From assembly GCA_017409785.1 (NCBI GenBank), contig JAFQSD010000002.1, positions 226,597-290,596 on the forward strand: DNA of 64,000 nucleotides, given 5' to 3'. The translations under genes and the position numbers were made by a program. Position 1 is the first letter of the stretch; every line of letters starts with the position of its first letter. Below are positions 8,735 through 45,704 of the stretch, one piece after another. The notes under the pieces are model-generated. The model made no database searches. It saw nothing but the letters and a program-made list of their open reading frames with translations, and was not told the DNA's origin. The stretch is from Bacilli bacterium. GTDB lineage: Bacteria; Bacillota_I; Bacilli_A; RF39; UBA660.

Positions 8735-8945
8735 CAAAAAAAGAATGGTCCCATAGGAGTGCATTCTGCACGGTACCATCCTTCTATTCACTTAATTACT
8801 TAACGAAGTCTCCTCCGGGAATCTCTTTCGAGTCCAACTAATAGGTAGTAACTACTAGATACATTTATTATCTTCCACCAAACGATAACTCTCTATAAAA
8901 TATAATTCTAATAATCATGTCCTATATATTAGTCTTTATAAATAC
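8735..8945 (-). promoter_or_regulatory. T-box leader of thrS
   Basis: On the minus strand GGATGGTACCGTGC is the T-box antiterminator sequence. It is followed by the competing terminator in which GAATGGTCCC-type halves close on GTGCA/TGCAC, ending in seven T. Upstream lies a long Stem I-like region with AGAGAG near its start and candidate Thr specifier codons (ACU, ACC) in TTACTACC. T-boxes bind uncharged tRNA and allow read-through into synthetase genes, here tRNA-Thr. A TATAAT at 8951-8946 lacks a good -35, so transcription probably enters from the leader promoter upstream. Confidence 0.88.
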
Positions 8946-34581: not shown

Positions 34582-35568
34582 TTAAGCAGCTGGAGCAACT
34601 GGTGCTGCAGATGCTGCTGGAGCCACTTCAGCAACTGGTGCCACTGGAGCAACTTCTGCTACAGGTGTAACCATTGTAGCTTCTGCTGCAACTGGTGCTT
34701 GTACTTCTGGAGTACTAACAGTTGGAATTGGTTGTGTATTTTCTAAAGGATTTGCTCCTCCATATATTTGATGAGGTTGTTCATTTAGATTTAAATCAGC
34801 TGATACTGCTGGACTAGCTCCACCATAAATTACAGGTTCTGTTGTTGGTGCAGCTGGAGCAACTTCAGCAACTGGTGCTACTGGAGCAACTTCTGCAACT
34901 GGTGCTACTGGAGCAACTTCTGCAACAGATGCTACTGGAGCAACCTCAGCAACTGGTGCTACCGGAGCAACTTCTGCAACTGGTGCTACTGGAGCAACTT
35001 CTGCAACTGGTGCTACTGGAGCAACTTCTGCAACTGGTGCTACTGGAGCAACTTCTGCAACTGGTGCTACTGGAGCAACCTCAGCAACTGGTGCTACTGG
35101 AGCAACTTCTGCAACTGGTGCTACTGGAGCAACTTCTGCAACTGGCGCTACTGGAGTAACTTCTGCAACAGGTGCACTTGCAGTAACTGCTGCTACTGAT
35201 GCAGGGTCAACAACTGGTGCTGCTGCTACTGGAGCTGCTTCTGCAACTGGAGCAACTGCTACAGGTTCAACTGCAACTGGTGCTACCGCTACTGGAGCCA
35301 CTTCTGTAACTGGTGCTGCTGCTACAGGTTCAACTGCAACTGGTGCAGCTGCTACCGGAGCATTAGGATCTGCAACAGCTGGAGCATTAGGATCAACAAC
35401 TGCTGTTTGTACAGATGCATCTGGTGTACCTTCCTCTGATTTTTTCTTTTCTTTTTTAGCCTTACTTGAAGTTACAATTAAAATAATAATTGCAATTATT
35501 AATAATAAAATTCCTCCGGTAATTAACATTCCTGGAACAGTTAAAAACCAATCTAAACTAAACTTCAT
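34582..35568 (-). CDS. Membrane-anchored Pro/Ala/Val repeat protein
   Basis: 328 residues. A single N-terminal membrane helix ([21 protein letters not shown]), then KAKKEKKK, then a long low-complexity domain dominated by the nonapeptide APVAPVAEV. The C-terminal part includes two IYGGA(S/N)P copies. Pro/Ala/Val arrays usually form extended wall-spanning rods. The base composition is much richer in GC than its neighbours because Ala, Val and Pro codons dominate. The start ATG follows GGGAGTAG. Confidence 0.7.
34846..35172 (-). repeat. 27-bp tandem repeat (about 12 copies)
   Basis: The unit reads ACTGGTGCTACTGGAGC followed by AACTTCTGCA on the plus strand and encodes nine residues (VAPVAPVAE). 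About twelve copies differ at a few silent or conservative positions (Ser, Thr or Ala substitutions). Copy number is likely to vary between strains. Confidence 0.85.
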
Positions 35569-37258: not shown

Positions 37259-38086
37259 CTATGCTCCTGCATTAAATTGCTTACCATAAGTTGTAATTAA
37301 ATAAGTACCACTAAATCCTAAAATCTCACTTTGATGTTTAGTAAGTCCCTCATCAAGTCTCATTTCATATTCACAAGCAACATCAACATATTTAGAACAT
37401 TCTTCTTTATTAGTAGCCATCATTCTAAATATTTGTGAAGTAGTTCTAACTGACGTACCACTAGCTTTACCAGCATAACTAAAATCAATTATATCTCCTT
37501 GATAATTAGATTTACTATAAACAACTGGGCTACTTACAACAGTCGCACTATTATGTGTCTTAGCAACAACATAATTATAAACATTTCCATCTTTCTTTAA
37601 AACATAATAATGTCCAGCAGATGCATCAACAGTTTTAACTTTTAAAACTTGACTATCTCTCATAATAGCATCAATTATCATATAATTACTATCAGAAGTA
37701 GGTACTACTGTATAAGCAGCATTCTCACCACTTCTAACTATATAATGATATTTACCATCATCTGTCTTAACAATATTTTCATCAAATAATGCCACAACTT
37801 TTTGTGTTAAAGATGAAGCCATACAATGTTGTTCATTAGAATACTTTTGTCCTACAGACAATTCATATAAAATACCAGACTCAGTAATAGCATGCTTTCC
37901 TGTTAAAAATTTAACTTTATCATAATCTGGATCCTTTAATAATGCATCACATATAAGTTCAGCACCAGATAAAGCAAATCCAGAATGTCTTATATCTCTA
38001 GTAGTAGATGCATGAATAGCATCACATCCACAACATAAAAAAGCTAACATCACAAATAACCCAATAACTTTAATTCTTTTTATCAT
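37259..38086 (-). CDS. Lipoprotein of unknown function
   Basis: About 275 residues from ATG 38086, after GGTAGGGTG. IKVIGLFVMLAFLCCGC is a lipoprotein signal with lipobox LCCGC. The mature domain has four Cys and long beta-rich stretches (YHYIVRSGENAAYTVVPTSDSNY). No family recognised. A hairpin and T run at the 3' end give it its own terminator. Confidence 0.6.
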   Translation of the reverse strand: MIKRIKVIGLFVMLAFLCCGCDAIHASTTRDIRHSGFALSGAELICDALLKDPDYDKVKFLTGKHAITESGILYELSVGQKYSNEQHCMASSLTQKVVALFDENIVKTDDGKYHYIVRSGENAAYTVVPTSDSNYMIIDAIMRDSQVLKVKTVDASAGHYYVLKKDGNVYNYVVAKTHNSATVVSSPVVYSKSNYQGDIIDFSYAGKASGTSVRTTSQIFRMMATNKEECSKYVDVACEYEMRLDEGLTKHQSEILGFSGTYLITTYGKQFNAGA

Positions 38087-38239
38087 AAACACCCTACCTT
38101 ATATAAAGTATCATATTATAAATAGATTATATCGTAAACAATAACCAAAATCAATAAATCACTTTTATTCTCTATAACTTTACAAACCCATATTTTTGTA
38201 AATTTACAAATAATTTTTTAAATATCGAAAAAAACTTTA

Positions 38240-38268
38240 TTGACAAACTTAACTATATATATTATATT
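38240..38268 (+). promoter_or_regulatory. Promoter of 38275 RNA gene
   Basis: TTGACA (38240-38245), 17 bp, TATATT (38263-38268). It is followed by a structured sequence and not by an ORF. Confidence 0.75.
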
Positions 38269-38274
38269 TATATT

Positions 38275-38617
38275 GTAATCTCGGTGACGAAAGTATAGTT
38301 TAGCCAAAACTAGACTAGAAATTGTAAAATTTGGGAGTGAAAACTTTAAAGTAATAACTTATCATAGGCCGAGATGCTGTAACCAAGTAGAGAGAAAGAA
38401 AACTCTGTAGGTAAGATGGTCAAGATTTAGTACTGATAATACTAGAAATTGATTAACCTATTAAACTCGGGACATAATTTTATATAATGCTGAAGTTAAA
38501 ATTTAATTGATATTTATCTACATTACTATTTAAATATTAATAGTTTAATGCCAGGTGTTTTATAAATCTCTAGAATGTCTTTTCTTTGGAAATGTTATGT
38601 ATAACATTTCCTTTTTT
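38275..38617 (+). ncRNA. Structured noncoding RNA gene (about 343 nt)
   Basis: The predicted transcript begins just before ATCTCGG (38278-38284), which pairs with CCGAGAT (38368-38374) to close a domain containing a TAGTTT/AAACTA hairpin. Next come AGAG/CTCT and TAGTA/TACTA hairpins, the latter extended by GGTCAA with TTGATT. The end is a terminator GGAAATGTTAT/ATAACATTTCC plus six T (38588-38617). No ORF or ribosome site is present, and no gene follows on this strand, so it is not a riboswitch. I checked for RNase P (GAGGAAAGUCC, ACAGAA) and tmRNA (T-loop, CCA) signatures and found none. A match to a family such as raiA cannot be judged by eye. Confidence 0.7.
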
Positions 38618-38638
38618 ATTGTCTAAATAAAAAAAATA

Positions 38639-38666
38639 AAACTCAAGCTTCTAACTTGAGTTTTTT
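38639..38666. terminator. Bidirectional terminator
   Basis: AAACTCAAG and CTTGAGTTT pair around CTTCTAA with T runs on both strands. It backs up the ends of the two convergent RNA genes. Confidence 0.7.
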
Positions 38667-38738
38667 ATCCGATTTTAAATTTTAATACTTTGGAAAAGAG
38701 TTTATATATAAAATTCAAAATATGAATTACATTTCATT

Positions 38739-38769
38739 AAAAAAGATAAGAGTAATGACCCTCTTATCT
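38739..38769 (-). terminator. Terminator of the array RNA
   Basis: GATAAGAG and CTCTTATC form an 8-bp stem followed by six T on the minus strand only, so it ends minus-strand transcription that has crossed the array. Confidence 0.75.
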
Positions 38770-39013
38770 CAAAAAGAATTATATACTTTTTTAATCATTC
38801 TTTTGTCAACGGATTAGAATCTGATAAATTCTAATCCTTCCTGGTTTCCAGGGAGCCAATCTATATGTCATTTGAGATTAGCCACTTATCAAAGTAAAGT
38901 TTTTCCATCTCTACTGTAACCTCTAGCACATAGCCGGTAAGATTCATATTTCCAAATAATAGTATTTTATTAACTTTTTTCAACTATTGATAATGGTCCC
39001 CCTGGTCATTAAA

Positions 39014-39632
39014 ACAGCTATGATTGGTCGCCTGGACAGCTATATATAGTCGTTTGCCCATTAGGTTTACAGCTATACATAGTCATCAACAGCTCACCCT
39101 GGTCATTCAACAGCTGGATGTTAGTCCTTACTACAGCTACCATTGGTCGTACTACTTTACAGCCAATTTTAGTCGCGAAGTAACTTCTTTTAATCATCCA
39201 AGTCGATTATGAGAGTCACAACTACAGCTAATAATAGTCAATTTTGCATCAGCTATTATTAGTCATAAATAACAGCTAACACCAGTCGTCATAACAGCCA
39301 ACGAAAGTCATCTACAGCCATTGAAAGTCGCTTGCAGCTATTATTAGTCATTTATTAAACAGCTAATAATAGTCACTCGGCAGCTAATATAAGTCATTTA
39401 TTTTAAACAGCTTATATTAGTCACTACTAACAGCTTACACTGGTCATACCAGCAGCCACTCATAGTCCCCTTAACAGCCAAGACCGGTCATTGTCTTTTT
39501 TAGCCACAAATTAGTCGTTATTTCTAACAGCTAAGATTAGTCCTTGCAACAGCTCATACTAGTCACCATTTTTAAACAGCTAATATAAGTCCTCGCAACA
39601 GCTTTAAGGCTAGTTACAACAGCCAATTATCA
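39014..39632 (-). repeat. Array of 23 variable decamers with constant flanks
   Basis: On the plus strand each unit is ACAG-CY-N6-RG-TC, always in this orientation, with centre-to-centre spacing of mostly 20-27 bp (one gap of 33, one of 65). Two units have an 11-base core. Two further degenerate copies lie at 39598 and 39619. The six central bases vary freely while the first and last two are fixed as pyrimidine/purine partners. Decamer coordinates and pairing are given in the findings. Confidence 0.85.
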
Positions 39633-39695
39633 TAATATTCATTCAGTTAATAGCTTGATCATTATAGGTCATATATGCTATATACTAACAATATC

Positions 39696-39723
39696 ATTAT
39701 AACATAGTTTGTCACTTTGTCAA
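39696..39723 (-). promoter_or_regulatory. Consensus promoter of the array RNA
   Basis: TTGACA and TATAAT are both perfect, separated by 16 bp, reading away from the lipid kinase gene and into the array. Confidence 0.8.
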
Positions 39724-39737
39724 CCGACTTTTTTAAA

Positions 39738-40604
39738 TTAGTCTAAAATTTTTTTAAGCAATTCTTTATCATTATAAATAGTAATCGCATGCTTAAGTAA
39801 TCGTACATCAAACTCATCATCATAAAGAGTTTCTCCGTCAGCACCTACAATAACTTTTTGGGTAGTTTTAAACTTAATTCTATCAGCTAATCTATGATGT
39901 ACATGAGGACTTTCTTCATGAGTTCCTTTTAGAACTTTAAGTAAAAGTCCTGGAATACTAGCTTTACTAACTCTATCTACAAAATAAATATCAAACATTC
40001 CATCACTTACATCAGCATTAGGTGCCATTGTCCATCCACCACCATAAGTCTTACCATTCATAATAGTAACAATAGTATATTCCCCAGTCTTCTTTGCTCC
40101 ATTTAAAACAAATTCAACTTCTTTAAACTTATACTTAACAAAAGTATAAGCAATACTTGCATTATAAATTTGACTACGTGGAATTTTCTTTTCTTTCATT
40201 AGTTCAGCATTATGTCCAATTTCTGCATCAATTCCGAATGAACAACAATTTAAAAAATAAGTATCATTAACTTTACCAACATCAACAGGAAAACTTAATT
40301 CTTCTCTATCTTTAATACTCTTATAATAATCATTTCCAGAACCAGCTGGTACAACAGCTAACATATTTTTAGTACCAATAATTCCATTTAATACTTCAAG
40401 TAAAGTTCCATCTCCACCAACACTATAAATTATATATTCACCCTTCTTATATTTTTTAGCAATCTCTGTTGCTTCATGTCCTCTAGTTGTATAGAAAATC
40501 TCATAATCAAGGCCTAATTCAGGTGCAACTCTTTCAATATTTTTACCAACTTTTTCTCCTCTACCTGCTCCACTCGTAGGATTAACTATAAATATATGTT
40601 TCAT
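39738..40604 (-). CDS. Diacylglycerol/lipid kinase (DgkB/YegS family)
   Basis: 288 residues. IFIVNPTSGAGRGEKVGKNI, the SVGGDGTLLEVLNGI loop and VVPAGSGNDYYKSI are the nucleotide-binding blocks of the DAGK catalytic domain; YGGGWTMAPNADVSDG lies in the second domain. The enzyme returns diacylglycerol to phosphatidic acid during membrane and teichoic-acid turnover. Its ATG directly follows the TAA of plsC, whose last codons supply the GGAGGAG ribosome site, so the two genes are coupled. Confidence 0.92.
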   Translation of the reverse strand: MKHIFIVNPTSGAGRGEKVGKNIERVAPELGLDYEIFYTTRGHEATEIAKKYKKGEYIIYSVGGDGTLLEVLNGIIGTKNMLAVVPAGSGNDYYKSIKDREELSFPVDVGKVNDTYFLNCCSFGIDAEIGHNAELMKEKKIPRSQIYNASIAYTFVKYKFKEVEFVLNGAKKTGEYTIVTIMNGKTYGGGWTMAPNADVSDGMFDIYFVDRVSKASIPGLLLKVLKGTHEESPHVHHRLADRIKFKTTQKVIVGADGETLYDDEFDVRLLKHAITIYNDKELLKKILD

Positions 40605-41271: not shown

Positions 41272-43584
41272 TTAATATTCTTCATCTTCTGGTCCTGGAG
41301 AACCACAACCGCCAACCAACGAAAATCCGATTAATGACATATTACTATTTATAGGTGTATTTATATTAAATAAACCAGTATTAACAGTAGGTCTATTATC
41401 ATATGGATAAAGATTGTCACAATTAGTCATACAATCCCAATCTTCTTCACCACATGCTGCATTACATTGATTTCTTTGGGCATATAAATTATTATATGCT
41501 GCAACTTGTGATGGTACAGAACTATCATAATAATGAAGACCATCATCCCTACCCTCACAAATAGTTTGACCATTTACTTTATCACACCAAATTACTCCAT
41601 AAGTATTATCATATGAATACTCATTCCATTCGGCTATATAATTTTCTTTAACACCAGCAACTAATGCATTATATAAAGTATCTCCCGCTTTAACTTTAAT
41701 ATTAGCAATATTTCTAAAACCAGCATTACTACATACAACTAAATCATAAAGAGCAACATTATAATAAACTTCTGCAGGGGCACTTGGTGTCTCTTCTTTT
41801 TTAGACTCTTCCTTCGGTTCTTCTTTAGAAACAGATTCTGTTTTTACAACAGTTTCACTCTTAAATGGAATTGTTTTTGTAACTTTAGGCCATTCTTTAG
41901 ACCATCCTTTAAATGTCAATTTATTTCCAATTATATTTGCTTCAGCACCAATTTCAGCAAAAGTTCCTGCTACAATCTTAGCTTCTACAATATTTGTCAT
42001 CTTATCAGTAGTCATTTCTGATTTTGCAGAAATATTACCTTTACCATAAAGACCTACACTACCAGTTCCAAGTAAATTAACCATATTTAGAAGTTCTACT
42101 CCCGCTTTCGCAGTAACTCCAATTCTTACTTTTCCTTCGGCCATAGCATCCGCAGTCATCTTATTTTTAGTTGATGCAGTTGCATAGAATTCCTTTTCAG
42201 TAGAATATCCAAAAGATACTTTTGTAGTATTAGTTAAATTAGAACTAATATTACCTTTAATATCAAAATCTAATAATAAGTTTGTTGTTAAAAGAATTTG
42301 AATTCCTGGAATACCAGATTCAACTGACACTTCTCCAAACTTCTTATCTAAACCATAATCATCTTTTTCAATTTTATATAACTCATCACTTAACCAGTTA
42401 ATACCTGTTTTATCCGCAGCTAAAGTACTAAAATCATTTTTAATTTTCTTTAAAGTTTCACTTTCTGTTTCAATTGAAGACTTAATAGATTGTCTTATTT
42501 CAAATTCAATTCCAACATCCCAAGTAACAATTGATTCAAAATTCTCATAAGCTTTTGCTTTAATTCCAACCTCATATCCAGTACTTAATTTATGGTGTTT
42601 TAAGAAACTCTTATTAAATACTTTATCCCCTGGATCAGTTTCTAATGTAACTCCAAAAACTACTTCTTTATCTTTCTTATTATATTTTGGATATGTTACT
42701 TTTACTTTCGCTGCAGCATCAACATCTAACATTAAACTATCAACAATTGACTTCTTCGCAACACTTGCTAAATAAGCAGCAAATTCTTCATTTACCTCAA
42801 CTTCTGATAAATCAAGATATTCCATATTATAATAATCAAATTTACTAAATACTTCTTCTAATTTAGGAATCTCTACTTCATAAGTACCATCACTATTTAC
42901 TTTAGTAATCTTATAAGCTGCTTTTGGATTATTATTACTATCTTCTGTAACTAATATTTCCCCTACTTTTAATTTTCTTTTAGTTTTAATAACATTATCA
43001 TTTACCTTGACACTATCATTACTAACCACTTCAACATTCTTAGTATATTTATGTGATTGACTAGCAATACGAACAGTACTAAATGTAACAATATTAGCCT
43101 CACTTAACTCACTATCAGTAAACTTTCCATTTGTAATTTTTAATGTATAAGTTTTACCTTCATCCCAACCATTTTCAGTTGGTTTAATAACAACATTACC
43201 ATCACTTTTTTCTTCAGTTACTTCAACTTTCTTTTCATCTTCATCAAGTACTTCATAACTAAAATCATCTTGAACTAAAACTTCAAAACTTTCATCTAAA
43301 GAAGCTCCCATCATATAATAGCTTCCATCAGTAAGCATTGAAACAATTGGTTCAGATTCCGCTAACTTAGTCTTTTTTACATCTCTCATATAAGAAATTA
43401 AAAATAATAAACCAATAATAAAACAAATTACTAATAATGAAATAATAAATACTAATTTTTTATTAATTTTAGTTTTTTTATTTTCTTCTTTTTTATTAAT
43501 TTTAAATTTTTTCTTATCTTTATTCTTTACTTTCTTATCTTCAATGCCTTCATCTTTTTTCTTCTTTTTAACTTCTTTTTCCAT
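41272..43584 (-). CDS. Large membrane-anchored surface protein
   Basis: 770 residues. A 46-residue Lys-rich cytosolic tail (KKKKDEGIEDKKVKNKDKKK) precedes one membrane helix (LVFIISLLVICFIIGLLFLIS). The external part has an Ig-like/SbsA-like segment at about residues 85-170 (TYTLKITNGKF), a long beta-rich middle, a Lys/Glu linker, and a C-terminal DUF4430-like region (IKVKAGDTLYNALVAGV) with about nine Cys. No enzymatic motif is visible. Probably a structural or adhesive envelope protein. Confidence 0.6.
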   Translation of the reverse strand: MEKEVKKKKKDEGIEDKKVKNKDKKKFKINKKEENKKTKINKKLVFIISLLVICFIIGLLFLISYMRDVKKTKLAESEPIVSMLTDGSYYMMGASLDESFEVLVQDDFSYEVLDEDEKKVEVTEEKSDGNVVIKPTENGWDEGKTYTLKITNGKFTDSELSEANIVTFSTVRIASQSHKYTKNVEVVSNDSVKVNDNVIKTKRKLKVGEILVTEDSNNNPKAAYKITKVNSDGTYEVEIPKLEEVFSKFDYYNMEYLDLSEVEVNEEFAAYLASVAKKSIVDSLMLDVDAAAKVKVTYPKYNKKDKEVVFGVTLETDPGDKVFNKSFLKHHKLSTGYEVGIKAKAYENFESIVTWDVGIEFEIRQSIKSSIETESETLKKIKNDFSTLAADKTGINWLSDELYKIEKDDYGLDKKFGEVSVESGIPGIQILLTTNLLLDFDIKGNISSNLTNTTKVSFGYSTEKEFYATASTKNKMTADAMAEGKVRIGVTAKAGVELLNMVNLLGTGSVGLYGKGNISAKSEMTTDKMTNIVEAKIVAGTFAEIGAEANIIGNKLTFKGWSKEWPKVTKTIPFKSETVVKTESVSKEEPKEESKKEETPSAPAEVYYNVALYDLVVCSNAGFRNIANIKVKAGDTLYNALVAGVKENYIAEWNEYSYDNTYGVIWCDKVNGQTICEGRDDGLHYYDSSVPSQVAAYNNLYAQRNQCNAACGEEDWDCMTNCDNLYPYDNRPTVNTGLFNINTPINSNMSLIGFSLVGGCGSPGPEDEEY

Positions 43585-43680
43585 AATCTTACTCCTTCAT
43601 TATAAAGGATATAACACCATAATTTTAAAAACAACCAACTTGTAATGAAGAGAATTTTATTTGTAAAAAAAAGCAAGTTA

Positions 43681-45006
43681 TTAACTTGCATCTGAAATCA
43701 TAATTGTAATAGTAAAGATATTATCATCATGAGTAATATTTAACTCTCCATCATACTTTTTAACTATATCTTTTATAATCTTAAGTCCATATCCATGGTC
43801 TTCATTTTTACGTGACTTAATCTTTTTATCTTTATAATTAACTTTTCCATCATAACTATTACTACATTCAATAATTATATTGCCTAATTTTTTCTTAATA
43901 CTGAATTTAATAATCTTATCATCTACTAAAGAACTATTCTCAATCGCATTATCAAGGATATTTGTAAATAAATTTGATACGTCAATATCTTCCATAAAAC
44001 TAATATTATTTTTAATATCAATTTCAGTTTTAATACCTAACTCTTTAGCTTTACTAACTTTTGTATTTAAAACAATATTTAATATATCATTATTAGAATA
44101 TTTAACTAATTCATATTGTTTTAAATCCTCATCAATTTTCTTAATAAACTTTTCACGATCTTTTTCATTTTTAAGTCCATACATCACACTAATATTATTC
44201 TTAATATCATGATTAATTTTTTTAATTTTATCTTCTTTAATTTTCATTTCATTATAATATTCTAACTGCATAACTTCTTTTTCTTTTAAGAATTTATTTT
44301 CTGCCTCAGTCTTATTTACTTCTTGATAAAACTTTAATCTACTATAACTATATATCATTAAGAATACTGACACTATAAATGAAACAACTCCAGTAATAAC
44401 CATATTCTTAGACTCCGGCATAAAATACATCGGTATATTACAAGTACATACTAAAATTACTGAAAATAAATTAATTAAAAATATTACTTTTGTTTTAACT
44501 TTCTTTCTATTTACAAAAAGTAAAATCATTATTTCTACAAAAGTTAATGCTGTATAAGCATAACCCTGTGTACAAAAAGACGAATATATATCTGAACTAA
44601 ATATCTCTAATAATTCTTCATATGGCATAACATTAAAATCATGAAATGATATATTATGTTTTGCCATCATCATAGAATTAAGAGAACCATTTACAACCAT
44701 ATTTAATATAGACCATAAAAATGGAGCCAAAAATCTTTTCCATTTTTTATCATCAGAAAAAATAAAACAAGATGCAAATATCCCTATAAATAAAATATCT
44801 TGTCTAAATTCATATGTAGTAATATTTAATCTACAAATAAAATAAACAACTAAATAAAATAAAAACCATTTCCATACTGGAAATTTACTATTATTTCTAT
44901 CTTTTAAAATACTAGAAAGGAAAAAAGCTGTTGTAAATAAACTCACAACAGTCATTAAAATACCCATTACTTCTAAATACCAATTATCAAAATTATAAAG
45001 TCGCAT
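43681..45006 (-). CDS. AgrC-type sensor histidine kinase (GHKL)
   Basis: 441 residues. Six to seven hydrophobic segments fill the first 210 residues, then a coiled linker, the phospho-acceptor region KIKKINHDIKNNISVMYGL with the His in NHD, and a HATPase_c domain (N box LFTNILDNAIENSS, G box HGYGLKIIKDIVKKYDG). This matches the peptide-pheromone and bacteriocin-sensing AgrC/ComD class. It starts 2 bp after the stop of its regulator gene. Confidence 0.88.
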   Translation of the reverse strand: MRLYNFDNWYLEVMGILMTVVSLFTTAFFLSSILKDRNNSKFPVWKWFLFYLVVYFICRLNITTYEFRQDILFIGIFASCFIFSDDKKWKRFLAPFLWSILNMVVNGSLNSMMMAKHNISFHDFNVMPYEELLEIFSSDIYSSFCTQGYAYTALTFVEIMILLFVNRKKVKTKVIFLINLFSVILVCTCNIPMYFMPESKNMVITGVVSFIVSVFLMIYSYSRLKFYQEVNKTEAENKFLKEKEVMQLEYYNEMKIKEDKIKKINHDIKNNISVMYGLKNEKDREKFIKKIDEDLKQYELVKYSNNDILNIVLNTKVSKAKELGIKTEIDIKNNISFMEDIDVSNLFTNILDNAIENSSLVDDKIIKFSIKKKLGNIIIECSNSYDGKVNYKDKKIKSRKNEDHGYGLKIIKDIVKKYDGELNITHDDNIFTITIMISDAS

Positions 45007-45008
45007 TA

Positions 45009-45704
45009 CTACACTTCCTCTTTAACATAATCAAATATTTCATTCTTAACTTTACTAATACTATTTCTACTAATAGGAATAACTTTACCATTATCCAAAA
45101 TAACTTGATTATGTTTATAACTCTTAACTCTTTCAAGATTAACTAAATAACTTTTATGAGTACGTAAAAAGTTTCCTTTTAGCATCTCTTCCATATCACT
45201 AAGTTTACCATAACTTACTAATACTTCATTCTTTAAATGTATATTTACAAGTCTAGCATCACTTTCAATATAATATATTTCATTAATCTTAACTTTACGA
45301 GTTTCTTTCAATGTCTTAACAACAATAACTTTATTTTCTTTATTAATTTTTTCAATTGCCTTTAAATAAGCCTTCTCTACTTTTTCTTTACTTAATGGTT
45401 TCTTAATTAAATAAACTAATTCTGTTTCAAATACATCTTCTATATATTCATCATATCCTGTAATATAAATTAACTTAGTACCTTTTAAATAATTTCCATT
45501 TTCTTTAATAAGTTCAATTCCATTAGTATTATCTAATCTAATGTCTATAAATAGAATATCACATTTCCTTGTTTTAATATCTTCTAAAAATTTTCTATAA
45601 TCAGTATATCCATAAATATTATCTTTATCACTACCAATACTCTTTAGCATACTACCTAGTGAGTCTACTATTACCTCTTCATCGTCTAAAATAAATATAT
45701 TCAT
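45009..45704 (-). CDS. LytTR response regulator (AgrA-type)
   Basis: 231 residues. Receiver domain with acidic pair DDEE, phospho-acceptor Asp in DILFIDIRLDN and Lys in LIKKPLS; LytTR DNA-binding domain from about residue 128 (YIESDARLVNIHL, FLRTHKSYLVNLERV). LytTR regulators control bacteriocin, virulence and competence genes. Its promoter (TTGTAA, 16 bp, TATGAT) carries the 19-bp operator at 45729-45747 that is shared with padR. It heads a two-gene operon with the sensor kinase. Confidence 0.9.
   Translation of the reverse strand: MNIFILDDEEVIVDSLGSMLKSIGSDKDNIYGYTDYRKFLEDIKTRKCDILFIDIRLDNTNGIELIKENGNYLKGTKLIYITGYDEYIEDVFETELVYLIKKPLSKEKVEKAYLKAIEKINKENKVIVVKTLKETRKVKINEIYYIESDARLVNIHLKNEVLVSYGKLSDMEEMLKGNFLRTHKSYLVNLERVKSYKHNQVILDNGKVIPISRNSISKVKNEIFDYVKEEV

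Follow-up and report, generated by a model that had tools for sequence, protein, structure and literature searches.

A candidate stand-alone RNA of about 950 nt composed largely of one repeated, two-fold symmetric helix module in a genus of Bacilli

What is encoded by a gap between genes in which short elements with constant flanks follow one another in a single orientation? The question was raised by a locus of a Bacilli bacterium (GTDB lineage RF39; UBA660) with a 1.5-Mb genome of 28% G+C. The window analysed is a stretch of 64,000 nucleotides of contig JAFQSD010000002.1 (assembly GCA_017409785.1), and all coordinates refer to it. The locus is placed between a diacylglycerol kinase gene (39738-40604, minus strand) and a lipoprotein-like gene (37259-38092, minus strand), in one of only two long ORF-free gaps in the window. 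The other gap is occupied by a T-box leader (8752-8939, minus strand; RF00230, 74.3 bits, E 4e-16, under the gathering score of 93).

The elements are preceded on the minus strand by the sequence TTGACA-16-TATAAT, with TG before the -10 hexamer (39723-39696). It agrees with the consensus at 12 of 12 positions, as expected from the perfect promoter of the preliminary description, and in two relatives of the same genus (G001 and G002) both hexamers are unchanged and the spacer has diverged. The strand-specific terminator described there was also found, as an intrinsic hairpin with a U run (38770-38743, minus strand) that carries three compensatory pairs across the genomes. From this promoter and terminator the RNA was taken to extend from about 39689 to 38739 on the minus strand, a length of about 950 nt. 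No conserved ORF was found within it in the three genomes compared. Since it has its own promoter and terminator and is without a conserved ORF, the locus is predicted to encode a stand-alone structured noncoding RNA.

The array had been described as 23 decamers of one orientation with constant flanks, numbered from low to high coordinate. The orientation is indeed single throughout, and 21 of the 23 fit the plus-strand pattern CAG-CY-N6-RG-TC exactly; the two that deviate are arm 5, which is 11 nt long with a single base bulged out, and arm 20, which is irregular and whose true position is 39505. One further arm (arm 0, GACCAGGGGGACC, 38995-39007) is absent from the earlier list. This gives 24 arms in all, every one of which is used in 12 nested helices. 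Elsewhere in the window the strict decamer pattern occurs 0 times on the same strand and once on the opposite strand. A two-element pattern gave 9 matches in the host genome, all inside the array, and the matches of a covariance model of the module (R3) in that genome were all at the RNA locus. REP/BIME elements are likewise short hairpins with constant ends; unlike these and other dispersed repeats, the modules are clustered and occur in the genome only at this locus.

The conserved helices are 23-22, 21-20, 19-0, 18-1, 17-12, 16-15, 14-13, 11-4, 10-5, 9-8, 7-6 and 3-2, all in the minus-strand RNA. Nine of the 11 pairings made earlier by hand are retained in the consensus fold; 23-20 and 22-21 are replaced by 23-22 and 21-20, so that the nesting holds except for 23-20 enclosing 22-21, and the helix of arm 19 with 38995-39007 had been missed. 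The tree is closed by a 5' core strand (39626-39688), nearly invariant in the three genomes, and its partner in the consensus fold, the 3' core strand (38923-38994); this pairing includes a conserved internal loop and has few consensus pairs that vary. Next to the 5' core stand hairpin modules 23-22 (39549-39593; arms 39580-39589 and 39553-39562; 10/10, 9/10 and 9/10 pairs in the three genomes) and 21-20 (39501-39544; arms 39531-39540 and 39505-39514), the latter taken from the consensus fold, with the inner 4-5 pairs formed in the window and G002 and 8 consecutive pairs in G001. The array-closing helix joins arm 19 (39478-39487) to arm 0, both invariant in the three genomes, with 38995-39005 paired in the consensus fold. 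Arm 18 (39456-39465) pairs with arm 1 (39018-39027) in the consensus fold, with a compensatory change of G-C to U-A in G001.

Arms 17 (39434-39443) and 12 (39318-39327), with three compensatory pairs in G001, enclose hairpin modules 16-15 (39380-39424) and 14-13 (39334-39376); both have 10/10 pairs in the window and G002, with two compensatory pairs in the former. Helix 11-4 (39298-39307 with 39093-39102) has 8/10, 10/10 and 10/10 pairs, three of them compensatory in G001, and is stacked in line with helix 10-5 (39276-39285 with the 11 nt of 39114-39124), which has 10 pairs and one bulge in the window and G002 and 7/10 pairs in G001. Farther in are module 9-8 (39224-39266; 10/10 in the three genomes, A-U to G-C in G001), a central conserved segment with its own hairpin that is almost invariant in the three genomes (39174-39220), and module 7-6 (39133-39176; 8/10, 8/10 and 9/10, U-A to C-G in G001), which has a central two-position internal loop. 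Module 3-2 (39036-39086) is 10/10 in the window and G002. The conserved 3' domain (38811-38920) has four hairpins (38920-38888, 38883-38854, 38852-38840 and 38837-38811), with compensatory pairs in the second and fourth.

The RNA is present once, at the same place, in three of three genomes of the genus, with identities to the window RNA of 91% in G002 and 73-83% in G001. RNAalifold on the three genomes gave 272 pairs; in 27 of these both bases have changed and pairing is preserved. Between the window and G001, partners in the 10-bp cores stay paired despite changes of letters (20 changed pairs kept, 11 of them double, and 6 broken), which is the outcome that the preliminary description had asked of homologues. 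Permutation of partners gave P values of <0.00005 to 0.0008 per genome. In an alignment of 12 hairpin modules, 95.5% of cells were paired and 17 cells were double-changed against a shuffled mean of 4.1; the pairing signal was gone when the alignment was slid by one column. Hairpins 16-15 and 14-13 are missing as a block from G001, where 17-12 is itself a hairpin, and hairpin 3-2 of that genome is still paired with quite different letters and has lost the module flanks, leaving a plain helix; no single module is thus essential. Hairpin loops differ in length and sequence between the genomes. Covariation in three genomes and the loss of whole hairpins in G001 show structure at the level of RNA, and on this comparative sequence evidence the comparison with the two other genomes is decisive that the RNA structure is real. 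With only three genomes, few evolutionary events stand behind the counts of covarying pairs.

Evidence from the single sequence is moderate. Against shuffles that kept the flanks and decamer ends, the fold of the 596-nt array gave z of -1.7 to -2.4, and 2 to 14 of 200 shuffles folded as well; such shuffles fold fairly well because pairs form readily between AT-rich decamers whose ends are complementary. Nested pairing gave a stronger signal: neither column permutation nor letter permutation reached the best score of 86 in any of 1000 sets, and order permutation did so in 5 of 1000. The full transcript had a fold z of -4.0 (0 of 20 shuffles as good). Forcing ten conserved helices cost 8.6 kcal/mol relative to a free minimum of -252.5, which places the conserved fold near, yet not at, the optimum computed for this single sequence.

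In 10 of the 12 helices each arm has the form RYGA-CYNNNNNNRG-CUGU and is paired with another such arm. Flanks were counted over the 54 helix ends that the ten regular helices provide in the three genomes. The invariable GA of each arm comes opposite the CUG of the arm with which it pairs, and the result is an A·C mismatch at 54/54 ends, a G·U wobble at 54/54 and a Y·G pair at 48/54; tandem U·G/G·U is present at 35/54. Position 4 beyond the core is paired at 53/54 ends (permutation mean 43.2, sd 1.5) and position 5 at 43/54 (mean 28.9, sd 2.6), and pairing at position 6 is at the permutation null. No register other than the A·C one gave an excess of comparable size. Outer, inner (junction-side) and loop ends of the helices behave alike. 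Because pairing with the partner arm exceeds the null at positions 4 and 5, the flanks are not junction linkers, as had been supposed; they are paired, and the helix runs at least two pairs further. Of the branched tree with a repeated junction module that had been proposed, the tree and the repeated module are borne out by covariation in the three genomes, and the assignment to junctions is not. A reading of the flanks with a bulged A was rejected, since covarying pairs beyond the flank appear only in the A·C register.

Each regular helix is about 20 positions long and has the same wobble step twice, at a distance of 11 bp. A-form RNA completes a turn in about 11 bp, so the two A·C/G·U steps would face the same side of the helix and each module would offer two identical surfaces. 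The linkers measure 12 and 11 nt (11-10 and 5-4) and 12 and 12 nt (19-18 and 1-0), so that the period of about 11 bp would roughly continue between in-line helices (11-4 on 10-5, 19-0 on 18-1). As deduced from these counts, the module is two-fold symmetric, with a free but complementary 10-bp core and fixed wobble ends.

Synteny around the RNA is stable within the genus. A second stand-alone RNA of about 340 nt, convergent with the first, was found at 38230-38620 (plus strand), with promoter TTGACA-17-TATATT and a terminator. It holds a PGK RNA domain (RF03040) just under the gathering score and is kept at the same place in three of three genomes with no adjoining pgk gene; the PGK RNA is listed as a cis-regulator, which makes a free-standing copy unusual. 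The diacylglycerol kinase gene had no match at E<=1e-30 in the family's other genera tested, and its only other match, 37% identical, was in another family of the class. Genes at 41272-45704 (minus strand), for a 770-aa protein of unknown family and a GHKL histidine kinase, with an adjacent 231-aa gene, are present in G002, but the corresponding region of G001 showed none of them. A gene at 34582-35568 (minus strand) encodes a protein that is anchored in the membrane and has a long tract of APVAEV-type repeats, which in the related genomes give rise to false isrG matches in Rfam.

The distribution was determined with R3 and with a second covariance model, R1, built on the 3' core. Clusters of R1 matches were found only in this genus (386 family and 395 class genomes searched), as were clusters of R3 matches (291 family genomes, with a lossy first-look filter in this model). 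BLAST in the 386 family genomes also gave this genus only, as did a search of 288 genomes of the order with the element pattern; the genome sets overlap, and the order is sampled by a single very large family. Short BLAST matches in G036, G019, G006 and G017 were set aside as chance, as were weak matches of R1 in other genera; those inspected lay within coding sequence. Viral contigs, phages and plasmids gave chance or tandem-repeat matches only and no array. A three-element pattern run on all genome contigs proved a poor one, the matches listed being mostly tandem-repeat loci. Next to the methyltransferase gene, no long ORF-free gap was found in five of six other genera, and two gaps were found in the sixth. 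The RNA, present in all three genomes of the genus and in none of several hundred others searched in the family and class, thus appears genus-restricted as far as searched.

The RNA had no noteworthy Rfam match at the gathering score, nor had the array one when E was allowed up to 10 (cmscan, 38200-39750), so the earlier statement that no described family has this design holds as far as tested. A literature query for an RNA of repeated symmetric-module design found no description, which is weak evidence; we ourselves know of no description of such a module. The locus has features general to large structured noncoding RNAs, namely its own promoter and terminator, no conserved ORF and covarying structure. 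GOLLD, ROOL and OLE are RNAs of bacteria or of bacterial phages; OLE, like the present RNA, is encoded in the chromosome, and it binds proteins. The present RNA is like them in being stand-alone, several hundred nucleotides or more in length and elaborately branched with invariant cores, and unlike them in being made from one repeated symmetric module, which to our knowledge is not described for them, and, as far as searched, in being restricted to a genus. None of their covariance models was listed for 38200-39750 (cmscan, E up to 10). By size and style the RNA fits the broad kind of large ornate bacterial RNAs, and no named family.

Two other systems share single traits with it. CsrB/RsmY sponges carry many copies of one short unit as a multivalent platform, a comparison of working only; the units of CsrB are GGA in hairpin loops, read by CsrA, whereas the constant element here sits inside helices. 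CsrA (PF02599) was not found in the host's 93.8% complete genome, with positive controls in three named genomes, which makes a CsrA sponge unlikely, and GGA stood between paired arms in 0 of 19 extracted hairpins. In Type III toxin-antitoxin systems the ToxI RNA has a repeated unit followed by a terminator, but its units are tandem near-identical repeats ahead of a toxin gene; the arms described here differ and have their partners at a distance, and the gene that follows is the remote lipoprotein gene. No toxin gene lies directly downstream: the next gene on the same strand starts at 38092, behind a second terminator, and has no Pfam match.

The letters of the cores vary and the mismatch is fixed all over the tree, which suggests one kind of ligand reading many equal sites. 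We tentatively propose that the RNA is a multivalent protein-docking scaffold, a quite possible role although we stop short of calling it probable. A repeated partner, for which a dimeric RNA-binding protein is the likeliest candidate, would dock on many modules at once; a large ribonucleoprotein particle would be built, or the protein held in store, and the invariant 5', middle and 3' cores may form a second, unique site. The genes nearby (diacylglycerol kinase, acyltransferase, lipoprotein) give no hint of a partner, and the fixed A·C/G·U step could also suit RNA-RNA packing or metal binding. With packing, the in-phase steps would be sites of contact between helices, and the RNA would fold by itself or oligomerise into a large ordered body or cage. 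GOLLD, ROOL and OLE, which form protein-free homo-oligomers (PMC12286853), provide a precedent; the length of about 950 nt, the branched tree and the nearly invariant cores resemble that group, and a module that is symmetric and faces one side is well suited to the packing of helices. Those RNAs are held together by a variety of interactions, however, among them A-minor contacts and kissing loops, and an identical step in nearly every helix is not described in the parts of the paper used here (PMC12286853). Moreover, cmscan gave no homology to them, and the variation of the hairpin loops leaves no sign of conserved kissing loops. A particle of RNA only is in our judgement somewhat unlikely, and a repeated RNA-binding protein is favoured over varied contacts because one ligand with many equal sites explains the fixed mismatch best.

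The steps may instead merely shape the helices, splitting 20-bp duplexes into 10-bp pieces, avoiding cutting by RNase III and keeping AT-rich arms in register, with the function in the cores and the array as a spacer or set of arms. This would agree with the absence from the array of any duplex of more than about 10 Watson-Crick pairs, the tolerated loss of modules in G001 and the cores being the most conserved part; yet any mismatch would do for the purpose, and A·C and G·U are each kept at every one of the 54 ends, so that we consider it unlikely. Protonated A+·C pairs and the binding of metals by tandem G·U pairs are established chemistry, and an invariant A·C beside an invariant G·U, often in tandem with another, would permit about 20 steps to switch together with ions or pH. 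No gene in cis is regulated, the RNA ending in its own terminator, and such a responsive RNA seems very unlikely. Least credible is an array acting as DNA, in which the repeats would be direct sites for a DNA-binding protein and pairing a by-product of symmetric ends. One orientation, constant ends in all elements and the fair folding of end-keeping shuffles would suit it, but distant arms covary as partners, flank positions 4 and 5 are complementary to the partner arm alone, spacing is irregular and whole hairpins are gained or lost; this reading is disfavoured.

The locus may represent a new architectural class, which we put forward with the same reserve as the docking scaffold: a giant noncoding RNA made almost entirely of copies of one two-fold-symmetric module. 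Its A·C/G·U steps, placed once per helical turn, would form a periodic surface on which a dimeric protein, or further copies of the RNA, could dock, and it would evolve by gain and loss of whole modules. In the natural large RNAs known to us so far, helices are individually shaped. If the proposal is true, the RNA would show that modular architecture occurs in natural RNA, built on an identical, symmetric module spaced by the helical turn, and its simple rule, a free core with fixed A·C/G·U ends, can be tested through single-pair changes. It would also mean that large RNAs can arise and stay within a single genus, and that family databases may miss many of them.
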